In this document: one piece after another, positions 10,214-40,250 of the stretch
Layout of the letters: the number at the start of each line of letters is the position of its first letter
Numbering within the stretch: the stretch's first letter is position 1
NCBI RefSeq assembly: GCF_000376865.1
Contig: NZ_AQXQ01000009.1
Span: 124,001-188,000 of the forward strand
Length of the DNA stretch: 64,000 nt
Direction: 5' to 3'
DNA from: Thioalkalivibrio sp. ALJ7
GTDB taxonomy: Bacteria > Pseudomonadota > Gammaproteobacteria > Ectothiorhodospirales > Ectothiorhodospiraceae
The notes under the pieces: generated by a model
What the model was told of the DNA's origin: nothing
Databases searched by the model: none
The model's input: the letters and a program-made list of their open reading frames with translations, nothing else
Translations under genes and position numbers: made by a program

Positions 10214-10358
10214 GGGACGTTCCTCGCAGTGTTTCCCTCACCCCGGAGGGTAGTTCAGTCGCCCCGCGCGGGTGTGGCGGACGGTTTTACTCCTGCGGGC
10301 TCTGGCCTAGGATTAAGGAGCGAATGATAGGGATAACGCGTCTGCCCACGGAGGCGAG

Positions 10359-28351: not shown

Positions 28352-28430
28352 TGCGCTGGCCGACTCCTGATCGGCCCTATCCTTCGCGGGCGGCGGAAAT
28401 GCCGCTGATTCGGCCGGACTCGCCGCGATG

Positions 28431-28491
28431 TTCGCCTGCAAGCAGGCTCCTGCAAGGTCTTGCCCCACGTTGGAGCCTGCTTGCAGGCGAA
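28431..28491. repeat. REP-like inverted pair downstream of kdsB
   Basis: Positions 28431-28450 and 28472-28491 are perfect 20-bp inverted repeats (TTCGCCTGCAAGCAGG core). Each arm is itself partly palindromic (CCTGCAAGCAGG). The same unit appears at 48542-48619 and, as a single copy, at 34840-34865. The location between convergent kdsB and the RIO kinase gene suits a terminator or mRNA-stabilising hairpin. No REP-associated transposase is seen in the window. Confidence 0.8.
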
Positions 28492-28552
28492 TGGACGTCA
28501 ACGAAGCTTCGATCCTAACCAGGGTCGGGCCCGGAAATCGCAGGCCCGCGGT

Positions 28553-29413
28553 TTACTGGTTATCCGGGTGGGTTGGATCGAGCGCGGCCAACTCGGCCTC
28601 GTGCTCCAGGCGCGCGTCCTCGATCTCGTCGAGCACGCCTTCGACGTCGGCGGTCTCTTCGCTGTGCTCGAAGTGGCCGGTCAACGGCGTTTCCGGCGTC
28701 AGATCGCCGTTGGCGAACAGCTCCCAAATCTCGTGGGCGTACTCCGTCTCCAGCAGCGCGGGAGCGGCCCGGCCGAAGGTCGCGCGCATGTTGTTCACAT
28801 CGCGTTGCAGCATGCGGAAGGCGTTGTTGTTGCCGGCGGCATTGACGGCCTGGGGGAGGTCGATGATGACCGGCCCCTGCGCATCCACCAGTACGTTGTA
28901 CTCGGACAGGTCGCCGTGGATCAGGCCGGCGCACAGCATGCGCTGGATCTGGCGAATCATGAAGGCGAACCATTCGCGCGCCTGATCGGCTGTCATCTCG
29001 ACTTCGTGCAGCTGGGGCGCGGTGTTGCCGTCGGCGTCCAGGACCAGTTCCATCAACAGGACGCGGTCGAATACACCGTAGGGGGCCGGTACCCGTACAC
29101 CGGCGTCGGCAAGGCGGTAGAGCGCCTCGACCTCGGCGTTCTTCCACTGGGTTTCCTCGACCTCGCGGCCATGACGTCCGCGCCGGGCCATGGCCCGCGC
29201 GTCGCGGCTGCCGCGGACCTTGCGGCCTTCCTGGTACTCGGCCAGCTTGTGGAAACCGCGATGCTTGGCTTCCTTGTACGCCTTGGCGCAGCGCGTCTCA
29301 CCGCCGCTGCTGACGATATAGATGTTGGCTTCTTTGCCGCTTTGCAACTGGGCGAGGACGTCATCAATTACGCCGTCTTCGACGAGCGGCTGGAGGATCT
29401 TGGGGGTTTTCAT
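28553..29413 (-). CDS. RIO-type serine/threonine protein kinase
   Basis: The 286-aa protein has an ATP lysine in CAKAYKEAK (K44), catalytic loop HGDLSEYNVLV (166-176) and metal-binding IIDLPQAV (183-190), the RIO1 pattern; a conventional activation loop is absent. Archaeal and eukaryotic RIO proteins act in ribosome maturation; bacterial RIO1-like kinases have unknown targets. The acidic tail (about 240-286) is typical. It lies downstream of two very small basic genes on the same strand. Confidence 0.9.
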   Translation of the reverse strand: MKTPKILQPLVEDGVIDDVLAQLQSGKEANIYIVSSGGETRCAKAYKEAKHRGFHKLAEYQEGRKVRGSRDARAMARRGRHGREVEETQWKNAEVEALYRLADAGVRVPAPYGVFDRVLLMELVLDADGNTAPQLHEVEMTADQAREWFAFMIRQIQRMLCAGLIHGDLSEYNVLVDAQGPVIIDLPQAVNAAGNNNAFRMLQRDVNNMRATFGRAAPALLETEYAHEIWELFANGDLTPETPLTGHFEHSEETADVEGVLDEIEDARLEHEAELAALDPTHPDNQ

Positions 29414-29479
29414 GAGTGCGTACTGGGTCGGCGGGACGAAAGACGCCGACCCGGGGGGCCGGCGGCGCGTGTTCCAAAA

Positions 29480-29616
29480 CTAGGGTAGAAAGACCTTGGG
29501 CTTGTGCTTCTCCGCCTTGGCGGCGCGTTTTTCCATTAAGGCAACACTGCTCAGTGTTGCCTTATGTTCTTTTCGGCCTTCTTCTTGTTGTCACGCTTAC
29601 GATCCATGGTCTTCAT
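29480..29616 (-). pseudogene. Small lysine-rich gene disrupted by a 29-bp palindrome
   Basis: From ATG 29616 the strand reads MKTMDRKRDNKKKAEKN, then hits an in-frame TGA inside a 29-bp palindromic insert (29537-29565). Removing exactly those 29 bases restores one frame of 35 codons continuing MEKRAAKAEKHKPKVFLP to TAG 29480-29482. The style resembles tiny basic proteins that often accompany the neighbouring 29597-29752 gene family. The start overlaps the end of that neighbour by 20 bp, so the two were probably coupled. The broken state is inferred from the exact frame restoration. Confidence 0.6.
29537..29565. mobile_element. 29-bp palindromic scar or minimal MITE remnant
   Basis: The sequence TAAGGCAACACTG, a 3-bp centre and its complement form an almost perfect hairpin. 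The arm matches the terminal repeat of the 288-bp MITE at 39452-39739 (TTAAGGAAACACTG) with one change. It interrupts a small reading frame and looks like an internally deleted element in which only the two ends remain. Confidence 0.55.
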
Positions 29617-29752
29617 GGGGTGGATCCTCCGGGGCGCCGGATGCGCCATCCGGCTGTTTGCGTGCCCGTTTCTGCTGGCGTTTCTCTTCCTGCTTGGCGG
29701 CTTTCTTCAGCTCGCGCTGGCGTTTTTCGTATTGGTAGTTCGGTTTGGCCAT
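29597..29752 (-). CDS. Small lysine/arginine-rich conserved hypothetical protein
   Basis: The 51-aa protein starts MAKPNYQYEKRQRELKKAAK and is strongly basic and helical up to about residue 32, with an acidic/Pro tail (GAPEDPPHEDHGS). Proteins beginning MAKPNYQYEKRQ are widespread in beta- and gammaproteobacteria and have no known function. ATG 29752 is chosen from this signature; the frame is open for 12 further codons upstream. Its stop lies within the start of the disrupted small gene. Confidence 0.7.
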   Translation of the reverse strand: MAKPNYQYEKRQRELKKAAKQEEKRQQKRARKQPDGASGAPEDPPHEDHGS

Positions 29753-29996
29753 AGGGCAGCAGGGTCTCCATTGAGGTTTCGCCAGCAAGGCGGGGGGTCA
29801 CGAATTGTGGTCTCTCCACAATAGCACCGAATCCTCGCGGCGGGGGTCAGCGCACATTGAAGGTCAAGGGCCGGTAACAGGAAGACAAGAAGCGTAAGCA
29901 GGTTCCTGATGGGATGACCGGGTGATCCTAAGCTCGACCACCATTATCTTCCTTCCAGTCTCCTTAACGCTTTTCGGGCTTCCGTCATTGCGCCAC

Positions 29997-32900
29997 TCAG
30001 GTGGGATGGAACAACGCGGTCTGGAGGGCGCGGGCCAGGGTCTGGCCTTCGGTGACGGCGGCTTCCGGTGTGGAATGGTAGGGCTTGAGGGTCGCGATCA
30101 CGCGGTGCTCGAGTTCGACATCGGTCAGGACGGGGCTTGGGTCGATGTAGCCGTTATCGTTGAGCCATTCTTCGAGGCGCTCGCGGGCGCTGGTCTGAAA
30201 GCGCTTGACCGTGCCGTTCTCAAGCTCGCGCAGGAGCGGTTCGGCTGCGCCATTCAGTTGTGTGGCCAGGTCGGCGACGGCGTCAATGAAGGTCGCACTG
30301 ACCGCCTCGGAGGCCTCCAGGGCAGCGCGATCCACCGGGCGGCCGCGACCCTGGCGCCAGGCGCGAATCCATGCGCGCACGGCGTCGCTGCGCGCCAGAA
30401 GCATCTGTTGGTCGGTGGACTCCAACAGGGAGTCGGCCGGGCTTTGTAACAGTGATTCCAGTGTGCCCAGACGATCCACGCCGAGCTCCAGCAAGTGGTG
30501 CAGCAGGTCCAGGCGGTCGCGCAGCAGGTGGAACAGGTGGATGCGAGCCGGATCCTGCCAGCAGTCGATCAGCGGGACGCCGCCGATCCGCTGAGCATAG
30601 TCTTCGGGCGTATCGCGGCCGGGGGCGGGTACGGGGTTGGATTCCGGAAAAGCCAGCTGTTTGTCGCTGGCCAATGTTTGCTGCCCCCAGCGGCGTGCGG
30701 CCAGATCGATGATCTCGACGCTGGAATCCTGCGCCTGCCAGTAACGGGCGTCTTCGGGTTGGGCGGTCAGGTAGAAGACCTGACGGCCGGCCTCGTGGGC
30801 CAGTGCCTGCAGGCTTTCCGCCACGGCCCGAAAGCGATCCGGGTCTGCCGTGCCCAATGCCTCGTCGAGAAACAGCGGGAGCGCGCTGCGCCCGCGCTCG
30901 GCCTCCAGGGCAAAGGCGATGCGCACGGCCAGGAGAAGCTGCATGCATGTGCCGCTGGAGAGCTCCGTGAGCGAGCGGGTGGACCCGCTGGCGGTCTCGC
31001 GGGCGGTGAACCGCGCCGAGGTGTGAGGCGAGAACTGCAGCTCGTACTGATGGCGGGTAAAGCGCTGGAACCACTCGCGGGCCTGGCGCAGGGCCGCGGG
31101 CTGCACCGACTGTTCGTGTTCGGCCTCGACCTGATCCAGCAAGAAGTTCCCGGCCGTGGCGAACAGGGCTTGATCCAGGCGCTCCGACAGGGCATCGCGG
31201 GCCTGTTCGCGTCGGGCGCGGGCGGTTTCCAGCTGACGCGCGTGGCCGGCATGGTCGATCGCGGCCTCGATGCGGGCGATCTCCTCGCTTAGTTGATCGC
31301 GGGCGGCCGCCTGGTCTTGCAGCGCCTGGAGCTTCGCTTCCAGAGCCTCCGCGTCGTTAGCCTCGACTTCCTCCAGCAGGTCCGGGCGGTCTTCGAGGTG
31401 GCGTCGGCGGTCGCGCTCGCGCTCGTGGACCTGACCCAACTTCGTGTTCAGTTCCCGCCAGCCGGGCCACTGGCGCAGCCGCTCGCGCAAGGTCGGTTCA
31501 TCGCCATCTTCCAGACCGGCGTCCTTGTAGAGTGTGGCGATCTGTTCGCGGGTCCGGATCGCGTTGGCTTGCGCCCGCTCGAGGTCGCGCCGGGCGGCCT
31601 CTTTTTCGTGCTGCGCGGTGTCCCGCGTTTGCAGCCGTGCCGCAAGGCGATCCAGACGCTGGGCCAGGCTGTCGGCCGAGGGGGCCGGGTCTGGAGGGGT
31701 GACGCTATAGCGGGACAGAAAGGCGATGACGGGGGTCCGGGTGGTATCCAGCTCGGTCGCCAGGTGCGCCTGCTCGGAACGGGCCGCGTTCACGGCCTGG
31801 CGGGCCCGGTCGTGGTTTGCGCTCAGGTGGACCCAGCGCTGCAGCGAGGCATCCAGGTGGCCGGGGTCGAAGCCGACCTGTTGGGCGATGGCGGTCAGCC
31901 GGTCTTCTTCCTGGTCCCGGGCCGTGCGACGCTCCTGGAGTTCGCGTTCAAGTTGGGCGCGCCGCTCCGCCGCTCGCCGCCCGGTCTCTGCGGTTTCCAA
32001 CTCCTGTTCCAGCAGGGCAAGGCGCTGGCGGACCGGGTCGGTCTCCCAGTTTGCGGGGGGTGTCAGGCCGGTATCACGGAAGCGTGCCTTTGCGGCTTCG
32101 CGCGGGATGTTGTCCGTCGTTGGGCGGCCGAGGATGTACGTACCCCAGGCGACTGGTAGCGCGAGTGCAGCGAACGCGAGGTGCACCAGCATCGCCGCCG
32201 TGCCGATCGCGGCGGCCGCGGCGACCAGAGCGACCCCGGCGGCGAGACGACGCAGGCCGCTCCAGGGTGCTGGGCTTGGAGCGCCCAACCAATGCAACAG
32301 CTCGTCGCGCCCGCGCCGCAGTGCGTCGGGTGCGGCCAGGGCGTTCTCCACCGGGGGCAGGCTCGTGAGTTCTTCCTCACGCCGCTCGATGCCGGCCCGT
32401 AGCGTACGCAGGGCCTCCAAGGCCTCTTCCACCCGGTGGAGCGTGTCCGGGTCCAGAGCGGGGGCGGCCACCGGTGTGCCGCCCAGGTCTTCGTTGGCCT
32501 GGTCCAGCGTGACCTGGGCCTCGTGCAGCTTGCTCGAGGCCTGTTCCAGCCGTCCTTCCAACTCCTGCAGCCGGCGCACCGCGGGGCGTTGGGCGTCCAC
32601 CGCATCCGTGTCCAGATCGAGGTCGGCCAGCCCGGTCTCGTCGCGGCGCTGGCCGGCCTCCTCGAGGCGCTTACAGACGAGTTGCTGTTCGTCCTCCAGA
32701 CGCCGCAACTCGTCCTGGAGCGGGGCGAGGCGTTGCAGCTCGTCGCCGCGAAGCGCGTCCAGACCGGGTGGGAAGGCCGCCATCCGGGTTTCGAGGTCCC
32801 GGTGTTCGCGGCGGGCCCCCAGCAGGTCCAGGGCCCGCGAGTACTGGTCGGCCTCGAGCGCGGCGAGCTGGGTCTGCTCGCGTTGCGCCTTCAGGTCGTC

Positions 32901-33449
32901 CAGGCGCTGCTCGTCGCGCTGCAGGCCGCGCTGCTGCTGCGCACACTCGCGCAGTTCCTTTTCCGCAGCGGTCAGCGCTTGCGACTCGCTGCGCGCGTGG
33001 GTGGTCTTCAGGTTCAGCGCAGGATCGTCGCGCAGGGCTGGCAGGTCGTAGCCACCGGCCAGTTCGCGGGCCAGGCGCTGACCGATCTCCTGTTCGGTGC
33101 CGTGGTCGGCGTTCAGCAGGTCCTCGATGCGCAGGGTGTAGCAGTCGATGAAGCGAGCATCCGGCAGCGGGGGCGCCTCGATGCGTTCGCCATTGCGGGA
33201 CCAGTACAGATCGGTCCCCAGTCGATGGGTCTGCAGCGGGCCTTCGTCTTCGACGAAGGAGGCCTCGATGTGGACGCCTGTCTGGCGTAGTTCCTGCGCA
33301 TACAGCACCGCTCGCACGGCCCGCACAAGGCTCGATTTCCCGGAGGCGTTGGGGCCGACTATCACGTTCACGCTGGGCCCCAGGGCATCCAGGCGGAAGC
33401 CTGGGTGGATGCCCGGCAGCCGGACGATGTTCAGTGAGTCCAGTTTCAT
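29997..33449 (-). CDS. SbcC/YhaN-like AAA ATPase with coiled coils and membrane-like segment
   Basis: The 1150-aa protein has Walker A GPNASGKSS (32-40), long coiled coils, a hydrophobic stretch at 401-440 long enough for one or two membrane helices, more coiled coil, and an ABC-type Walker B/D-loop LPLFLDEALGTADPDR (857-872). This matches YhaN-type relatives of SbcC/Rad50. A C-terminal domain of about 220 residues (930-1150) follows the ATPase head and is unusual. The start MKLDSLNIVRLPG at 33449 lies 7 bp after the stop of its nuclease partner. It is probably a DNA end-processing complex; direct evidence is lacking. Confidence 0.82.
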   Translation of the reverse strand: MKLDSLNIVRLPGIHPGFRLDALGPSVNVIVGPNASGKSSLVRAVRAVLYAQELRQTGVHIEASFVEDEGPLQTHRLGTDLYWSRNGERIEAPPLPDARFIDCYTLRIEDLLNADHGTEQEIGQRLARELAGGYDLPALRDDPALNLKTTHARSESQALTAAEKELRECAQQQRGLQRDEQRLDDLKAQREQTQLAALEADQYSRALDLLGARREHRDLETRMAAFPPGLDALRGDELQRLAPLQDELRRLEDEQQLVCKRLEEAGQRRDETGLADLDLDTDAVDAQRPAVRRLQELEGRLEQASSKLHEAQVTLDQANEDLGGTPVAAPALDPDTLHRVEEALEALRTLRAGIERREEELTSLPPVENALAAPDALRRGRDELLHWLGAPSPAPWSGLRRLAAGVALVAAAAAIGTAAMLVHLAFAALALPVAWGTYILGRPTTDNIPREAAKARFRDTGLTPPANWETDPVRQRLALLEQELETAETGRRAAERRAQLERELQERRTARDQEEDRLTAIAQQVGFDPGHLDASLQRWVHLSANHDRARQAVNAARSEQAHLATELDTTRTPVIAFLSRYSVTPPDPAPSADSLAQRLDRLAARLQTRDTAQHEKEAARRDLERAQANAIRTREQIATLYKDAGLEDGDEPTLRERLRQWPGWRELNTKLGQVHERERDRRRHLEDRPDLLEEVEANDAEALEAKLQALQDQAAARDQLSEEIARIEAAIDHAGHARQLETARARREQARDALSERLDQALFATAGNFLLDQVEAEHEQSVQPAALRQAREWFQRFTRHQYELQFSPHTSARFTARETASGSTRSLTELSSGTCMQLLLAVRIAFALEAERGRSALPLFLDEALGTADPDRFRAVAESLQALAHEAGRQVFYLTAQPEDARYWQAQDSSVEIIDLAARRWGQQTLASDKQLAFPESNPVPAPGRDTPEDYAQRIGGVPLIDCWQDPARIHLFHLLRDRLDLLHHLLELGVDRLGTLESLLQSPADSLLESTDQQMLLARSDAVRAWIRAWRQGRGRPVDRAALEASEAVSATFIDAVADLATQLNGAAEPLLRELENGTVKRFQTSARERLEEWLNDNGYIDPSPVLTDVELEHRVIATLKPYHSTPEAAVTEGQTLARALQTALFHPT

Positions 33450-33456
33450 GCCGCCC

Positions 33457-34737
33457 TCACGATTCGTGCTCGCGCTGGAGCAGGAGCCGGTCGAGGGCAT
33501 GCAGGGCGGCGGCCTCCAGCTGGCGGGCGATGACCTCGTCATCGGGGGTGTCGGGGGCGAGCGCGCGATAGCGCGGGTCGTGAATCACCTGGGTGAGTGG
33601 TTCGCGGGCCTGGTCCAGCAGTTCGCGGCGGGCCGCGGTGTCCGGGCCTTGCAGCAGTTGGAGCTTGCGGGCCAGCAGTGCAGCGGGGTCGCTGCCCGCG
33701 GCCAGCTCCTCGAGATCCACGGCAGGCAGGGCGTCCAGGCGCCAGTCGTGGACGAAATACAACCGGCCCCCAAAGTCCTGCGGAGTGGTGCGTGGGTCGT
33801 CGGCATGCAGGCTGCGCTCCAGGGCATGGCGTTGATCGCTGCGCCCGGTGAAGCGCAGACGGCAACCCACGGCCGCGGGCCCGTGATTCCAGGTTTCCAG
33901 CTCGGCATGCAGGGCTTCCAGGGCCTCGGTCACGCGGCGGTGGATGTCGGCCGCTTCCTGCAGGGCATCCACGGCGATCTCGAGCGTATGCCAGTACAGC
34001 GGTGCCAGTGGAATCTGCTCAATGGCCAGGTGGCCATCCGGGTTGACCTCGAGACACCAGGGTCCGTGGCGGCCGGGCTCGCCCGGGTCCATGCCGGTCA
34101 GGGAGCCCAGATAGCCCATCGGTCGCGGTGCGGCGAGTGAGTCGGGGCGGTGGATATGGCCCAGCAGCCAGGCCTCGACTGGGGCCGCCTCCAGGTCTCG
34201 GCTGCGCACCGGGGCGTGCGGGCTGCGGGACTGGTCGCGGTCGCAATGCAGCAGGCCAACGGTGGGGCAGTCGGTCGCCTTGGGGAAGTCGCCCTCCAGC
34301 GGGCTGGTGGTGACGCGTGCATCGGGGAACGACCAGCCGGCCACCCGCAGGCGCTCACCGTCCTCGCGGTGCAGGTCGCGGGTCTCCCACTGTCCGCCGG
34401 CGCCCAGCAACTCGAAGGCGGGCAGGGATTCGGCGAGCCGTGGAAGGACCTGCACATCGTGATTGCCGGCAACGCCGAGTACACGTATGCCCGCCTCGGT
34501 CAGGCGTTCGACCCCTGCTCGGAGGTCGCGGTAGGCCTCGTAGAAGTCGTCTTCCTGTTCGACCACGTCGCCGGCCAGGAGCACCGCGTCCATGTCCTGT
34601 TCCACGGCGTAGTCGACGGTGCGGCGCCAGGCAGCGGCCGGGCTGAGGTTCGCGATACCCAGCGCCTCGTCCACCGCCGGCGGGATGCGCGAGGGCTGGC
34701 GGCCGAGGTGGATATCGCCCACGCACAGGAGCTTCAT
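33457..34737 (-). CDS. SbcD/YhaO-like DNA repair metallophosphoesterase
   Basis: The 426-aa protein has the calcineurin-like motifs in order: GDIHLGRQ, GDVVEQEDDF, AGNHDVQ, then HCDRDQS and GHIHRP. Mre11/SbcD-type enzymes cut DNA ends with an ABC-ATPase partner, encoded here directly downstream. Start MKLLCVGDIHLG at 34737 is chosen; an upstream extension of 24 codons lacks similarity. Two-gene organisation and the YhaN-like partner suggest YhaO rather than canonical SbcD. Confidence 0.85.
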   Translation of the reverse strand: MKLLCVGDIHLGRQPSRIPPAVDEALGIANLSPAAAWRRTVDYAVEQDMDAVLLAGDVVEQEDDFYEAYRDLRAGVERLTEAGIRVLGVAGNHDVQVLPRLAESLPAFELLGAGGQWETRDLHREDGERLRVAGWSFPDARVTTSPLEGDFPKATDCPTVGLLHCDRDQSRSPHAPVRSRDLEAAPVEAWLLGHIHRPDSLAAPRPMGYLGSLTGMDPGEPGRHGPWCLEVNPDGHLAIEQIPLAPLYWHTLEIAVDALQEAADIHRRVTEALEALHAELETWNHGPAAVGCRLRFTGRSDQRHALERSLHADDPRTTPQDFGGRLYFVHDWRLDALPAVDLEELAAGSDPAALLARKLQLLQGPDTAARRELLDQAREPLTQVIHDPRYRALAPDTPDDEVIARQLEAAALHALDRLLLQREHES

Positions 34738-34839
34738 GGACGCGGGGAGGCAGTCGGGGTCATGGGCGCAGTTTGGGAGAATCGTGGGGTAAAGCCAATC
34801 CCGGAGCATGGGATGGGTCCCTTCATCGGTTCTGCCCTT

Positions 34840-34865
34840 GTGGGACCCTGCAAGCAGGCTCCCAC
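34840..34865. repeat. Single REP-like palindrome
   Basis: GTGGGA...CCTGCAAGCAGG...TCCCAC forms an imperfect hairpin in the 148-bp gap between the YigB-like gene and the nuclease gene. It shares the CCTGCAAGCAGG core with the pairs at 28431 and 48542. It may separate the two transcripts. Confidence 0.6.
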
Positions 34866-34885
34866 GGGTGTGGTCGTGCGCGGGG

Positions 34886-35608
34886 TCAGGTTTCGATGCC
34901 GAGTTGCCGGGGGAGCTGGCCGAGGCGGCCGAGGGTCAGGCAGGGGCGAGGGTGACCGTGCTCCCAGGGCAGGGATTGCGGGTTGAACCAGGCGGCGCGG
35001 AAGCCGGCCTGCAGGGCGCCCAGCACGTCGGCGTTGCTGTCGTCGCCGACGTGGAGGATGGCCCCGGGCGTCACGCCCGCCTGCTCGCGGGCCTGGTGGA
35101 AGATGCGCGGGTCCGGTTTGGCGGCCCCGGCCTCGCCGGCGGCGATCGCGAAATCGAAATGGTGCCCCAGAGGTGTGCGAAAGACATCGGCGTTGCCGTT
35201 GCTGATCGCACCGAGCCGGAAGTGCCGACCCAGTTGGTCGAGGACATCCTGCGCCTCGGGGTAGGGCGTGACCTCGTTGCGCGCATGCCAGAACACCTCG
35301 AAGCCCTCGCCGGAGAGATGGTCCGGGCAGCAGCCGCAGGTGTCGGCAAGCTCGCGCAGCCATTGTTTGCGCAGGCCGGTGAGGTCATGTCGCTCGTGGG
35401 CGGGCGCGGCGCGCATGAAGGCGGTGCGCGCCTGGATCAGCGCCTCGGCGTCAAACCGTTCACAAACGGCCGGGGCATGCTCGCGAAGCCAGGCATAGAA
35501 CCGCGCCTCGGCGTGATGGATCACCGGCATCACCGGCCACAGGGTGTCGTCGAGGTCGAACGTCAGGCAGCGGATGCCGGACAGGTCGGGTGGATTCTTC
35601 GGTAGCAT
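34886..35608 (-). CDS. yigB: YigB-like HAD phosphatase
   Basis: The 240-aa protein has HAD motif I LTFDLDDTLWPV (nucleophile D18, acid D20), AISNGNAD (motif II), KPDPRIF (motif III) and HVGDDSNADVLGA (motif IV). The pattern, length and C-terminal EISRL-like tail agree with E. coli YigB, which dephosphorylates 5-amino-6-(5-phosphoribitylamino)uracil, the step missing from the rib cluster, and FMN. The substrate is by similarity only. Confidence 0.78.
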   Translation of the reverse strand: MLPKNPPDLSGIRCLTFDLDDTLWPVMPVIHHAEARFYAWLREHAPAVCERFDAEALIQARTAFMRAAPAHERHDLTGLRKQWLRELADTCGCCPDHLSGEGFEVFWHARNEVTPYPEAQDVLDQLGRHFRLGAISNGNADVFRTPLGHHFDFAIAAGEAGAAKPDPRIFHQAREQAGVTPGAILHVGDDSNADVLGALQAGFRAAWFNPQSLPWEHGHPRPCLTLGRLGQLPRQLGIET

Positions 35609-35733
35609 GCCCGTAGCTTAGCGGCGCTGCGCGCCTTGAGGGGCATGCCGCTAGTGGGGTTGGGGAAACCCTTCCGGTTGCGATCAACGAACACCCCCTG
35701 CATTTTGAAGACCGGTTTGAGCGGGAGCAGGAT

Positions 35734-36315
35734 ATGGATACCGAAAATGCCCAGCGTTGGCCGCGCTACGCCCGCAGCCAAAGGGTCCTGCACTGGTTGA
35801 TCGCTGCCCTTGTGCTGGGTGCGCTGGTACTCGGCGGAACGATTGGTTGGTTTGGGTTCGAGGGGTTGCAGGAGCGATTTGGAGCGGCGGGGACGGACCG
35901 GATCTATACCTGGCACAAGTCCTTCGGCGTGCTGATCCTGTTTCTGATGGTGGCGCGGGTGGGCCTGCGCCTGCGTCATGGCAAACCGCCTTACGCCATG
36001 GCGCTGCCGCGGGCTCAACGAATCGCCGCCGAGTCCGTACACGGTCTGTTGTATGTGCTACTCATCGTGATGCCGGTCATCGGCTGGTGGGCCACCGCCG
36101 CCGGCGGCTACCCCGTGCAGTTGGGTCCGTTGTTCCTGCCCGGGTTGTTCCCGGAGAACGAGGCGTTGTCGGAGGTCCTGTTTGGCTGGCACCGGGCGTT
36201 GGGCATTGCCATTACCCTGCTGGCGCTGGGACACATCGCGGCGGCGTTACATCACGCGCTGGTGCGTCGGGACGGTGTGATGCAGCGGATGACTTTCGGC
36301 GGGGATCGGTCCTGA
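35734..36315 (+). CDS. Cytochrome b561 family protein
   Basis: The 193-aa membrane protein has four hydrophobic helices. Histidines suited to bind two b-type hemes sit in VLHWLIAAL, WHKSFGVLILF, SVHGLLYVLL and GHIAAALHHAL. Members carry electrons from quinol, or oxidise superoxide in E. coli CybB. RBS GGGAGCAGG precedes the ATG. The next gene follows 5 bp downstream. Confidence 0.88.
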   Translation: MDTENAQRWPRYARSQRVLHWLIAALVLGALVLGGTIGWFGFEGLQERFGAAGTDRIYTWHKSFGVLILFLMVARVGLRLRHGKPPYAMALPRAQRIAAESVHGLLYVLLIVMPVIGWWATAAGGYPVQLGPLFLPGLFPENEALSEVLFGWHRALGIAITLLALGHIAAALHHALVRRDGVMQRMTFGGDRS

Positions 36316-36320
36316 CCGTC

Positions 36321-37919
36321 ATGCTGCGCCTGCTACTGGTATTGGCGGCGCTGAACATCGTCCTGCTGGCGTTTGAGATCCCGCAGTACGCGGCCTTCGG
36401 CGGGCACTGGCTGGCATGGGAGGCGTTGTTCCTTACCGGGCTTTTTGCCCTGCTTCCGGCGGGCCGTTTGGCCCACTTTCTGGCCTGGGCCGCTGGTTTG
36501 GTGCTGCTCTCTCTGGTGGTGCTGACCCTGTTTGACGCCCTCACCCGGGCCAGCCTCACACGCCCCTTGAACGTCTGGCAGGACTGGATCCTGCTGGATG
36601 CGGTGTACCGTCTGGTTACCGGCAATCTCGGCCTTGTCGCCACTATGTTGCTGGGATTCGTGCTGGTGGTGGGCTTGATGGCCGTGATCTGGGGTGCCCA
36701 CCGCGGTCTGTTCGCACTTTCATCGGGCGGCTCGAGATGGCGGCGAGTGCCAGCGGCCGCTGCGGCGGGCCTGCTGGTCGCGGGATTGGTCGGGACCCTG
36801 GCGGACCTGCGTGGCGTTGCGCCCCCTGGGACGGTGGCGCCTGGCGCGGGACTGGTCGCGCAACAGGTCACCGCCGCACAGGGCGCCGCCGCCGATAATC
36901 GCCGCTTCCGTGATGAACTGCAGCGTTTGTCCCACGAGGCCAGTGCGCAACCGCTCCCGGGACTCTCGGGGGTGGACGTGACGCTGGGCCTGATCGAGTC
37001 CTATGGGGTCTCGGCGGTGTTCGACGATCGCTATGCGCCCGTCATTCGTCCCGTACTCGACGCGCTCCAGGCCGATCTGGAGGCCGCCGATCTGCATGTG
37101 GCGACGGGGGTGCTGGAGGCGCCGATTGCCGGCGGACAGTCCTGGTTGGCACAGGCCTCGCTGCTCGCCGGCCTGCAGGTGCGCTACGCCGGGCATTACG
37201 CGGCATTGCAGACACAACCGCGCGACACGCTGGTGCAGGATTTCCGGGAAACCGGGCATCACACCGCGATGCTGGCCCCGGCCATTCAGCTCGACTGGCC
37301 GGAAGGGCGTTGGTTTGGCTGGGACCGGATCGTCGATAAGCATGCCTTTGACTACGCGGGCCCGCCCTTCTTCTGGGTGACCATGCCGGATCAGTACACT
37401 TGGTCGTTCTTCGAGGAGCAGGTGCGGGCCCCGAGCGATGAGCCGATCTTCGCCATGCTGGCGCTGGTGAGTTCGCATGCGCCGTGGACGCCAATCCTCC
37501 CTGTGATCGAGAACTGGGACACGATCGGCGATGGTGAGGTGTTCCACGAATGGGCCGGGAAGGGGCCGACGCCGGAAGCCCTGTGGCGGGACTTTGATCG
37601 GGTGCGCGAGTACTACGCGGAGTCGGTGCGCTATTCGCTGGAGGTCACCGGGGGCTATGCCGCGCGCTATGCGGACGAGGACACGCTGTTTTTCCTGCTG
37701 GGGGATCACCAGCCGGCGGCGTTGATCACTGGGCAGGACGCCAGTTGGGCGGTGCCGGTGCATGTGATCTCGGGCGATCCGGAGTTGCTGGAGCCGTTCC
37801 GCGCGCGCGGCTTTGTGCCCGGGATGCAGCCGCCGTCCGAGTTTGCCGAAGACGGGTTTGATGCCCTGCGAGGCTGGCTGCACGACGCGTTCGGCGCGTC
37901 CTCCGAAGTGGATGGGTGA
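36321..37919 (+). CDS. Membrane-anchored sulfatase/alkaline-phosphatase-fold protein
   Basis: From ATG 36321 the protein has 532 aa: four or five N-terminal membrane helices (to about residue 150), then a domain with GLIESYGVSAVFDDRYAP, the nucleophile region AGGQSWLAQASLLAGL and metal-binding LLGDHQPA. This recalls lipoteichoic acid synthase and phosphoethanolamine transferase-type enzymes that modify envelope lipids or glycans. The nucleophile would be Ser/Thr; the exact residue and substrate are uncertain. It is probably cotranscribed with the cytochrome gene. Confidence 0.75.
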   Translation: MLRLLLVLAALNIVLLAFEIPQYAAFGGHWLAWEALFLTGLFALLPAGRLAHFLAWAAGLVLLSLVVLTLFDALTRASLTRPLNVWQDWILLDAVYRLVTGNLGLVATMLLGFVLVVGLMAVIWGAHRGLFALSSGGSRWRRVPAAAAAGLLVAGLVGTLADLRGVAPPGTVAPGAGLVAQQVTAAQGAAADNRRFRDELQRLSHEASAQPLPGLSGVDVTLGLIESYGVSAVFDDRYAPVIRPVLDALQADLEAADLHVATGVLEAPIAGGQSWLAQASLLAGLQVRYAGHYAALQTQPRDTLVQDFRETGHHTAMLAPAIQLDWPEGRWFGWDRIVDKHAFDYAGPPFFWVTMPDQYTWSFFEEQVRAPSDEPIFAMLALVSSHAPWTPILPVIENWDTIGDGEVFHEWAGKGPTPEALWRDFDRVREYYAESVRYSLEVTGGYAARYADEDTLFFLLGDHQPAALITGQDASWAVPVHVISGDPELLEPFRARGFVPGMQPPSEFAEDGFDALRGWLHDAFGASSEVDG

Positions 37920-38013
37920 CGCGGCTTGTCCGCCGTCGGCCGAGCGCCTCGGTTGTCCGGCCCCATCAAGACCCTGGTTCGGCATCGGGTGTATCCGGAG
38001 ACTTCGTTCAGCC

Positions 38014-38770
38014 GCATGCCTTTCTGTGGCTGGTCCTGGTTCGTCCTCCGGTGTTTACGTGCCTTCGGTCCACGTACTGCCGTGCGCTGACTCGCCAGCG
38101 CGCCCCGAGGTCCTTTCTTGCTTGCCCAAGAAAGGACCCAAAGAAGGGCACCCGGATTTCGCCCGGGAACCTTGCTCCAGGGCTCTCTGGCCGGCGGCGC
38201 TGAACTCGCTACGCTGCGCTTCGCTCAGACATCCAGCGCCTTCTTCCGGCCCGAAAACCCTTCCGCAAGGGGCTCCATACGGGAGGCGAAGGTCAAGACA
38301 GAAGGTGTTCCGCCCCCCGGACATAACAATAGGCAATGCCGTTCGAAGGCCCCGGCGCCCGCTACGCGGGCGCGGCACGCCATGGCCGCAGGCCGAGCGT
38401 GCCCGAGATGATCGAAGGCCTAGCCATCATCCATTAGCAACAACGCCGGGATGGCCGTTGTCTTGACCTGCCTCCCCGTTGTCGTCGCGCCGAGCGGAGA
38501 GGGTTTTCGCGGGAGAAGAGGCGCTGGATGTCTGAGCGGAGCCGAAGGCGCAGCGAGTTCAGCGCCGCCCGCGAAAACCCTCGGAGCGAGGGAAACCCCG
38601 GCCCGCGCAGCGGGCCGGGGTCGCGGCAGTCGGGCGTGTTTCTTGGGGACTTCTTTGCACGAGCAAAGAAGTAACTCGGGGCGCGCTGGCGAGTCAGCGC
38701 CTGGCAGGTCGCGGACCGAAGGCACCATAAACACCGGATGCCACTCCAGGACCAGCCACTACCAGGCAGG
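38014..38770 (-). repeat. Structured non-coding element, copy B (inverse of copy A)
   Basis: Read on the minus strand, this ~757-bp sequence follows copy A (4082-4850) from end to end, including the middle. Arms are about 38014-38240 and 38519-38770. TGGCTGGTCCTGG is at 38026-38038 and its complement at 38746-38758. Hairpins TCCTTTCTTG...CAAGAAAGGA (left arm) and ACTTCTTTGC...GCAAAGAAGT (right arm) keep pairing although their sequences differ from copy A. It fills most of the 929-bp gap between the sulfatase-fold gene and fabA. Confidence 0.8.
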
Positions 38771-38848
38771 AGGCGGGTAAAGGGCAGGGAAACGTGGGAG
38801 GGCGAAGAACACCGGCTCCCGCGCTCGCGATGGCGGAAGCCGGTGGGA

Positions 38849-39361
38849 CTAGAAGTTTTCGGTGGAGGTGAACAGGCCGACGCGGAGGTCGTGGGCCTCG
38901 TAGATCGGCCGCCCGTCGACCTTGACGATGCCGTCGCCGATGCCGAGCACCAGCTTGCGCGAGATCACCCGCTTCATGTCGATGTGGTAGGTGACCTTCT
39001 TGGCGGTCGGCAGGACCTGACCGGTGAACTTGACCTCGCCGACGCCCAGGGCGCGGCCGCGGCCGGGGTTGCCGAGCCATGCCAGATAGAAGCCGACGAG
39101 CTGCCACATGGCGTCCAGCCCAAGGCAGCCGGGCATCACCGGGTCGCCGGGGAAGTGACAGGCGAAGAACCACAGATCGGGATGGATATCCAGCTCGGCG
39201 ATCATTTCGCCCTTGCCGTACTGGCCACCGTCGCTGTTGATCTCCAGCACGCGGTCCATCATCAGCATGTTGGGGACCGGTAGCTGGGCATTGCCGGGGC
39301 CGAACATGTTGCCGTGGCCACAGGCCAGGAGTTCGTCGCGATCGTACTGATTCTTCTGCAT
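38849..39361 (-). CDS. fabA: 3-hydroxydecanoyl-ACP dehydratase/isomerase
   Basis: Introduces the cis double bond of unsaturated fatty acids. The 170-aa hot-dog protein has catalytic H69 ([17 protein letters not shown]) and D83 (LGLDAMWQ), matching E. coli H70/D84. ATG 39361 ([15 protein letters not shown]) gives the family length. fabB, its usual neighbour in pseudomonads, is not adjacent. A MITE lies upstream and may influence its promoter. Confidence 0.95.
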
Positions 39362-39451
39362 GGGAGCGCCGCTCGGGGAAAAGGCCGGTATTGGACCGAA
39401 ACCCGCGCACAAAAGCAATTGCGGCGGGTTTCGGTGGTGCGCTGATGGCCT

Positions 39452-39739
39452 TTAAGGAAACACTGATTACTGTGCCCGCTCGCGCTCGAGTCGCTTTTGC
39501 GTGCGAACAAGGCGCGGTGACCGCCGTGCAGTCATTCTGCACAAGGGAACCGCAACGCCGTTCCCACGTAAAAGCGGCCAAGCCCCTGGTTTCAATGGCT
39601 TGCGGGGTTGGCGCCCCAGGTTCCCCGATCCCGCGTTGCGGCCCTTGCCGGTAGAACCACTACCGGCTGCGCACCGCGCCTGGTCTCGAAAAACCTGGGG
39701 TACCAACGCGAGCGTGCACAGTAATCAGTGTTTCCTTAA
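39452..39739. mobile_element. 288-bp MITE with 24-bp perfect terminal inverted repeats
   Basis: Positions 39452-39475 and 39716-39739 are exact inverted repeats starting TTAAGGAAACACTGATTAC. Further subterminal matches (CGCTCGCG, AGGCGCGGTG) extend the symmetry inward. The 240-bp interior has no convincing gene. The size, terminal repeats and lack of coding fit a non-autonomous transposable element. It abuts the stop codon of the 39740-40054 gene and lies 91 bp upstream of fabA. The parental transposase is not in this window. Confidence 0.78.
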
Positions 39740-40054
39740 TCAGGCGTCGGAGGGATACCGTAGCAGTTCGGCGAGGGTAAAGAAGCGATCGCCGCGCAGG
39801 TAACCGGCCTGGATGTCGGCGACCAGTGCCCCTGGGCGGCCCTTATTGTCGTGTTCGGCGACCCAGTGTGAAGGGACGGTATCCAGGATGTGGGTACAGG
39901 CCAGACGGCCATCTTCCAGGTGGCTGGCGTGTACTTCGCCGGTTTGGCGGTCGCGAAAGGCCGGGAGCCAGCCGGCGGTAAAGCCGGCATCCAGCCAGGC
40001 GGGATTCTCGGTGCGGGCCGGTAGTGGGGCTGGCAGAAGGTCGAGGCTGAGCAT
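39740..40054 (-). CDS. Conserved hypothetical protein (104 aa)
   Basis: No family is recognised. The protein begins MLSLDLLPAPLPARTENPAW and ends TLAELLRYPSDA; it has mixed alpha/beta character, several His and Trp residues (HASHLEDGRLACTHILD, SHWVAEHDNKG) and no signal peptide or membrane helix. The TGA stop (39740-39742) touches the MITE end exactly, so the insertion may have trimmed or replaced the original 3' end. Coding is supported by length and amino-acid make-up only. Confidence 0.5.
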   Translation of the reverse strand: MLSLDLLPAPLPARTENPAWLDAGFTAGWLPAFRDRQTGEVHASHLEDGRLACTHILDTVPSHWVAEHDNKGRPGALVADIQAGYLRGDRFFTLAELLRYPSDA

Positions 40055-40250
40055 CGCGAAGTCTCCGGGGATTTAAATCGAGTATCGGCGTCAGCGGCAC
40101 AAACTTGAGACTAAGATCCACGGGTCTGGTCGAGAACGGGCATCTGCGGGGATGATCCGACATAATCGGCGGGCCGTATGGAGGTCGGAGTTGCGCTGGG
40201 GATGGCGGGCACGGACCATGCGGTAAAAGAACAACAAGCAAGGGGTTGCC

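Follow-up and report, generated by a model that had tools for sequence, protein, structure and literature searches.

A 22-bp palindrome interrupting a small lysine-rich gene of Thioalkalivibrio sp. ALJ7 is probably the remnant of a MITE

A small lysine-rich gene that is interrupted by a palindrome was analysed in a 64-kb stretch of the 2.7-Mb genome of Thioalkalivibrio sp. ALJ7 (genome G000), and this whole stretch is referred to as the window. The following features were considered:

28553..29413, minus strand: PA4780-family RIO1-like protein kinase, the downstream gene (NF041645, 453 bits at a cut-off of 350; RIO1 PF01163)
29480..29616, minus strand: small lysine-rich gene interrupted by the putative scar, recognised from the sequence, from intact orthologues in G011, G009 and G002 and from homologues in G027, G018 and G014
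29536..29539: right copy (in gene orientation) of the putative 4-bp target duplication, TTAA, from the comparison with G022 (CTAA..TTAA) and with the uninterrupted allele CTGA
29540..29561, minus strand: 22-bp palindromic scar GGCAACACTGAGCAGTGTTGCC, interpreted as a hybrid of the left and right MITE ends, with one mismatch to the hybrid of the same-site element in G022
29562..29565: left copy (in gene orientation) of the putative target duplication, ATAA on the minus strand, from the same comparison
29597..29752, minus strand: small basic ORF beginning MAKPNYQYEKRQ, 51 residues, located upstream and overlapping the start of the interrupted gene
39456..39735: full-length 280-bp MITE with GGAAAC-type ends, recognised from the sequence, with flanks TTAA at 39452-39455 and 39736-39739

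In its intact form the small gene (29480-29616, minus strand) encodes 36 residues. The minus-strand frame from 29616 to 29480 today reads MKTMDRKRDNKKKAEKNIRQH and then stops at an in-frame TGA contributed by the palindrome, and directly past the palindrome lies an in-frame ATG, from which MEKRAAKAEKHKPKVFLP and a stop codon can be read. The interrupted gene is without a Pfam or NCBIfam match, and no family of these two collections was found above the cut-off for the upstream small ORF. A joint query of 81 aa was matched in 39 of 371 genomes, and among the matches listed most were obtained via the upstream small ORF.

The kinase gene was used as locus marker in the relatives and as the basis of a tree. 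It was found in 19 of the 96 genomes searched, the genome of the window included. Both small genes, or their remains, are located ahead of the kinase in six genomes, namely that of the window and those of five close relatives, which were read as the Thioalkalivibrio strains T. versutus AL 2 (G009), ALMg11 (G002), ALJ16 (G023), AKL19 (G011) and ALE14 (G022). The two small genes of G018, G014 and G027 sit on contigs other than that of the kinase, and in G027 the kinase contig stops within the kinase. There is no space for the second small gene in G030, where about 40 bases separate the first small ORF from the kinase.

The site of the palindrome was found in three states in the six genomes: it is uninterrupted in G011, G009 and G002, occupied by a full MITE in G022 and occupied by a 22-bp palindrome in G000 and G023. 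The uninterrupted alleles encode K-T-L-M-E-K, with a net difference of 26 bp from the scar allele, and the homologues of G027, G018 and G014 carry K-S-L-L-E-K at the corresponding motif. The continuous frame that the sequence-only reading had foreseen in genomes lacking the palindrome was thus present, at the locus in G011, G009 and G002 and elsewhere in the homologues of G027, G018 and G014. The palindrome is not conserved at the site either, as two of the six genomes have it, one has the full MITE and three have neither. In G022 the MITE has a length of 267 bp and is flanked by CTAA and TTAA; in G000 GGCAACACTGAGCAGTGTTGCC is located between ATAA and TTAA; in G023 the site reads GGAAACACTGAGCCGTGTTTCC and the rest of the gene is decayed. 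Three of the six genomes with the locus carry the small gene in broken or decayed form. The codon AAC just ahead of the insertion and the right-hand TTAA are common to G000 and G022, and the uninterrupted alleles are without both. A derivation of the uninterrupted allele itself as a MITE footprint, proposed from the resemblance of its ACACTGA to a MITE end, was ruled out by the matching K-S-L-L-E-K codons of G027, G018 and G014, which are without an element.

The arms of the inverted repeat inside the small gene extend from 29536 to 29549 and from 29552 to 29565, and the two copies of the putative target duplication, which differ from each other in one base, read TTAA and TTAT on the plus strand. 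Judged by the alignment of the alleles, the net insertion is best read as 26 bp, consisting of a 22-bp element and a 4-bp target duplication. An insert of 29 bp had been proposed initially. The palindrome, the in-frame stop and the 35 codons plus stop obtained by removal of 29 bp were all confirmed, and excision of either 26 or 29 bp preserves the frame; the size itself had to be corrected, with 26 bp giving the 36 residues of the intact orthologues in G011, G009 and G002 and 29 bp giving 35, with one residue lost.

With up to two mismatches, the arm was matched five times in the window at an expectation of 0.13: two of the matches are the arms of the palindrome, two are the ends of the MITE (39452-39739) and one is at 10227. 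When AGGMAACACTGNNCAGTGTTKCCT was searched with up to three mismatches, the window scar was the sole place in the 2.7-Mb genome, and a looser pattern gave two more places at two mismatches. The match of the arm to the ends of the element at 39452, from which the palindrome had been derived in the sequence-only reading, was confirmed. That copy is disfavoured as the direct parent; the arm is nearer to GGCAAC-type copies, which are found at the same site in G022 and at C11:432937 of the genome itself, than to the GGAAAC-type copy at 39452.

The element at 39456-39735 shows the features of a MITE, namely terminal inverted repeats, short length, no evident coding capacity, many matches and a target duplication. 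The family was matched in 16 of 30 genomes of the genus, with 11 to 40 matches each and 36 in G000; these figures are matches and not copies because the two arms of the element resemble each other. The end consensus of 27 full elements is GGAAACACTGAT(T/C)AATGTACAC, and many of these elements have CTAG- or TTAA-like flanks of 4 bp. YTAR is presumably the target of the IS5 group. The element is predicted to fold end to end as one hairpin (DNA fold, z = -11.5). In G000 the nearest-partner MITE ends are about 160-320 bp apart; no IS-sized pair that could represent an autonomous IS partner was recognised among its end pairs, several ends being unpaired at two mismatches. In a plasmid collection no match to the MITE was found at E 1e-5. 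The lengths of 266, 280 and 295 bp observed for the MITE are due to two optional modules of about 15 bp (window 39456-39735; L054, L056, L061, L067). At G000:C11:148751-149037 (L097, L098) two MITE ends abut and have two bases of their outer ends in common; the element on the right is completed at 149037, and the one on the left is without a second end at two mismatches.

The palindrome in the window is probably the remnant of a MITE from which the interior was deleted between terminal inverted repeats that acted as direct repeats. The sequence-only reading had regarded the interruption of the small gene as a minimal remnant of such an element, and this is supported by the full MITE that G022 has at the site. 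The history would begin with a MITE that entered the small gene at a CTAA-like 4-bp target, in an ancestor from which some of the Thioalkalivibrio species studied descend. In G022 the full element persists at the insertion site, and the comparison of the alleles suggests that in the lineage of the window the interior was lost and one 22-bp hybrid of both ends was left. Most likely the deletion took place between the terminal inverted repeats serving as mutual direct repeats; the long hairpin predicted for the whole element could bring the ends together during replication, and slippage of replication across this hairpin may have removed the interior.

Each MITE end is quasi-palindromic around TGATCA, and the left and right ends align head-to-tail over 22 positions. 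The inverted ends are therefore also imperfect direct repeats, and a deletion between them would leave one hybrid end, a 'solo TIR'. Because such a deletion runs between the ends as direct repeats, its product would measure 22 bp, as one end does, at whichever position the switch from left to right falls. When remnant lengths of 8-72 were evaluated for the 27 full elements, 22 bp gave the best mean local score (5.07; the next was 4.31 at 36), and the identity of the ends read as direct repeats was highest (0.55) at a remnant of 22 bp.

The scars were compared with the hybrids expected from individual elements. The L027 scar of G022 is identical to positions 1-14 of the left end joined to positions 15-22 of the right end of the asymmetric element located at the same site in G011 (0 mismatches in 22), and none of 26 unrelated elements gave an exact match. 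The L039 scar has 2-3 mismatches to the hybrids of the orthologous elements and is no closer to them than to most unrelated elements. The window scar is one base off the G022 hybrid, equally close to one unrelated copy (L062). The G023 scar may have its origin in another copy or in an independent insertion, because it has four mismatches to the G022 hybrid and one to each of three unrelated copies. At positions 8/15 of 23 scars, C/G was found 9 times, T/G 8 times, C/A 6 times and T/A not once, as expected of single crossovers; the pattern restricts position 8 to C/T and position 15 to A/G, T/G and C/A are equivalent when the strand is reversed, and with about two T/A expected by chance the zero is not significant.

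Scars of this kind recur across the genus. A 22-bp palindrome pattern with up to two mismatches was matched in 18 of 30 genomes, some of the matches being ends of full elements, and the reversed control gave 0. With a stricter pattern and free lengths of 16-46, 39 places were found in the 16 MITE-bearing genomes (reversed control 6 over all lengths). Out of 31 possible lengths, 22 bp accounted for 23 of these 39 end-to-end pairs, followed by 24 bp with six, 20, 23 and 32 bp with two each and 25, 31, 34 and 38 bp with one each; the 22-bp places are partly redundant, as some are one site in two species. An alternative pattern applied to all 30 genomes gave 21 of 42 matches at 22 bp (control 2), and its sole 36-bp match overlaps a 22-bp scar. 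Scars of other lengths may escape, as the 26-bp palindrome of L178 falls outside both patterns. This perfect GGAAACG-type palindrome of L178 (G001:C2:135262-136020), GGAAACGCCGATAAATCGGCGTTTCC, is part of about 170 bp that are inserted as compared with the L032 site. In addition, a 32-bp palindrome with MITE-like outer arms occupies one orthologous site in G029, G001, G021 and G005 (L317, L357, L358, L359), and its inner bases vary, unlike those of the usual 22-bp scars.

The flanks of scar and scar-like sites were searched in 15 genomes and selected orthologous stretches were compared for 27 sites (15, 11 and that of the window). From the 23 loci L023-L045, 16 entered the flank searches; L024, L025, L037 and L038 were omitted, L028 is the window site, L030 is its counterpart in G023 and L026 is the same site as L045. 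From the second set, 14 of 18 stretches were used, with P14 being the same site as P5. L023, P1 and P11 had no usable orthologous flank. The compared sites include 24-bp units (P9, P10), a 32-bp unit (P12) and weak 22-mers; only selected matches were taken per site, for example 7 of the 12 usable ones for L044, and diverged flanks made comparisons uninformative, for example at L029, L032, L036, L040, L042, L043, P3, P6 and P10.

A relative with the full element at the place of the scar was found for four of the 27 sites (window, L039, L027 and P8), and at the other 23 no full element was present within the relatives' stretches compared. At L039 the scar is in G021 and the full element in G001, G025 and G005; at L027 the scar is in G022 and the full element in G011; at P8 the scar is in G001 and G025, and in G021 the left part of an element runs to the contig end. 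A gap of exactly -4 with aligned flanks, corresponding to an empty site with a single copy of the 4-bp target, was observed at L034, L044, P2, P4 and P8. At P8 the empty G029 and the scar-bearing G001 have identical flanks over a minimum of 126 bp, ending 9 bp short of the site, the substitutions are clustered in the 9 bp on either side of it, and agreement then resumes for at least 20 bp. Such a cluster between identical flanks favours a local exchange of alleles between species as its probable origin. Scar, full and empty alleles coexist at one site among close relatives (L313, L343, L344, L346).

At the window locus, the tree of the kinase, a single gene, was (G000,(G023,(G022,(G011,(G009,G002))))), with support of 99/98 for the G000 split and 89/89 for the G023 split. 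In this single-gene tree the intact genomes form a clade within the interrupted ones and the allele states do not track the tree, which implies multiple insertions or the transfer of alleles between species by recombination. Interspecies recombination or repeated events must therefore be added to the deletion between the ends proposed above.

Slippage determined by the longest exact direct repeat was tried as a full account of the scar length. It predicts remnants of 36 (13 hits), 26 (8), 22 (6) and 58 bp (6), and was rejected because scars of 36, 26 and 58 bp are predicted at least as often as those of 22 bp yet are nearly absent, 58 bp lying beyond the length range of both patterns. Pairs of 26 and 36 bp were not found under the stricter pattern, and one of 36 bp was found under the alternative pattern. 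Ungapped scores of at least 6 are equally frequent at 36 and 22 bp (11 of 27 elements each), and the imperfect direct repetition of the whole ends, adopted in place of the longest exact repeat, does not alone account for the missing 36-bp scars.

The poor fit of slippage at the longest exact repeat and the constant modal length would both agree with a scar produced by transposase-assisted aberrant excision, that is, by cutting and rejoining near the ends instead of replication slippage. We consider this unlikely: the switch between left and right seems to fall at different points of the 22 bp, which is not expected of a single fixed cut, and no IS-sized partner was recognised among the end pairs of the genome, in which several ends stay unpaired at two mismatches. 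Less likely again is a direct insertion here of the 22-bp palindrome, moving by itself as a minimal unit with two ends under the action of the same transposase. The constant modal length would suit such a unit as well, most scar sites show only empty, scar-bearing or uninformative relatives, and some of the empty relatives, in comparisons of close genomes, have a clean 4-bp target (P2: G009 vs G002). Against it stand the four sites, that of the window included, with the full element in a relative, and the L027 scar, which reproduces the left/right differences of its element exactly. Moreover, the ends of such a unit would be 11 bp, and transposase binding sites are usually longer.

The deletion between the terminal repeats of a MITE can be compared with several known systems. 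Tn10 undergoes nearly precise excision (Foster et al. 1981, as cited in PMC5991714). This deletion is reportedly independent of RecA and of transposase. The likeness is that the interior is lost between short repeats in the inverted ends and a short palindromic remnant stays. In the present case the repeats are the MITE ends themselves, because each end is quasi-palindromic, and the remnant has 22 bp, occurs at many loci and was deduced from comparison, not from genetics. In the formation of a solo LTR, recombination between the end repeats likewise drops the interior and one hybrid end stays; LTRs are direct repeats by design, whereas here inverted ends double as imperfect direct repeats. The arms of the window palindrome match the family ends, the full element is present in a relative, and the uninterrupted relatives are shorter by element plus duplication; the case would accordingly be classed with nearly precise excision, as a variant of it, and not as a class of its own.

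Bacterial MITEs are described, in the part of a review available to us (PMC10969869), as short and non-coding, with terminal inverted repeats, a target duplication and many matches per genome, and some copies are said there to have lost their ends; the remnant found here is made solely of the two ends. In that part of the text 'excision' occurs once, and 'deletion', 'remnant', 'footprint' and 'scar' are absent. A scar consisting of the two ends alone was not encountered in the literature searched, most subscription papers lying outside it. REP/GTAG palindromes have been reported in two Thioalkalivibrio isolates and, according to the available part of the report, have 20-40 bp and are in some cases located within ORFs (PMC3733652). 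As compared with these, the window unit has the MITE end sequence and a 4-bp duplication, and its feet, ATAAGG and CCTTAA on the strand of the gene, are without GTAG or CGTC.

It is conceivable, and we propose it tentatively, that quasi-palindromic ends make every MITE copy self-erasing and that collapse to 22-bp 'solo TIR' scars is appreciably frequent. If so, collapsing MITEs would quite generally give rise to orphan palindromes in bacteria, and the loss of small genes would follow, since 22+4 = 26 shifts the frame. Orphan palindromes of this small size, readily catalogued as REP-like elements or as terminators of obscure source, would gain an origin, and a palindrome inside the terminal repeat would serve as a sequence rule to predict which mobile elements leave scars of fixed length.

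That the palindrome acts as a stem in the form of a terminator or a reinitiation or recoding signal, as the sequence-only reading had offered as an alternative, is very improbable. The strong RNA fold (137 nt, z = -3.65) and the ATG in the frame of the gene directly after the palindrome would agree with it, as would a terminator-like site with the tail TGTTCTTTTC that was listed by a consensus scan on the plus strand, antisense to the gene; the scan gave 5 such sites in 551 bases at an expectation of 1.4. On the gene's own strand, however, no terminator was listed by the scan, TGGAAAAACG following the stem there, and the T-rich tail belongs to the gene's own sequence. The stem is missing from the intact orthologues, the 267-bp element takes its place in G022, near-identical 22-mers are found at unrelated sites, and no Rfam match was obtained across 28400-40200.

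Homologues of the small gene in G027, G018 and G014 were compared for silent and replacement changes. The counts were 7 and 0 for G018 vs G014, 8 and 1 for G027 vs G014 and 5 and 1 for G027 vs G018 (pairwise pS 0.27-0.44, pN 0-0.013), the sequence in both G018 and G014 being MSKGMDQKRDSKKKPAKSLLEKRAAKAEKKKK. Over 25 codons of G011 vs G018, pS was 0.78 and pN 0.09. Most differences between the homologues of these three other Thioalkalivibrio genomes are thus silent, and on this substitution pattern the small gene is a genuine gene under purifying selection. Its copy in the window is a pseudogene by insertion. That the frame is not a gene and was interrupted by coincidence in non-coding DNA, which the broken or decayed copies in three of six genomes, the missing Pfam and NCBIfam matches and the low counts for G011 vs G002 and G009 (1 silent and 2 replacement changes, too small a number to reveal constraint) might suggest, is scarcely credible against the 5-8 silent and 0-1 replacement changes of the G018/G014/G027 pairs and the recognisable homologue in the distant genome G159. 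In this distant member of the class the homologue is that of the second small gene, and the first small ORF has no match there. Within Thioalkalivibrio the two genes, an unnamed lysine-rich pair of about 50 and 32-36 residues, adjoin each other (window 29480-29752; L274, L275, L276, L301).
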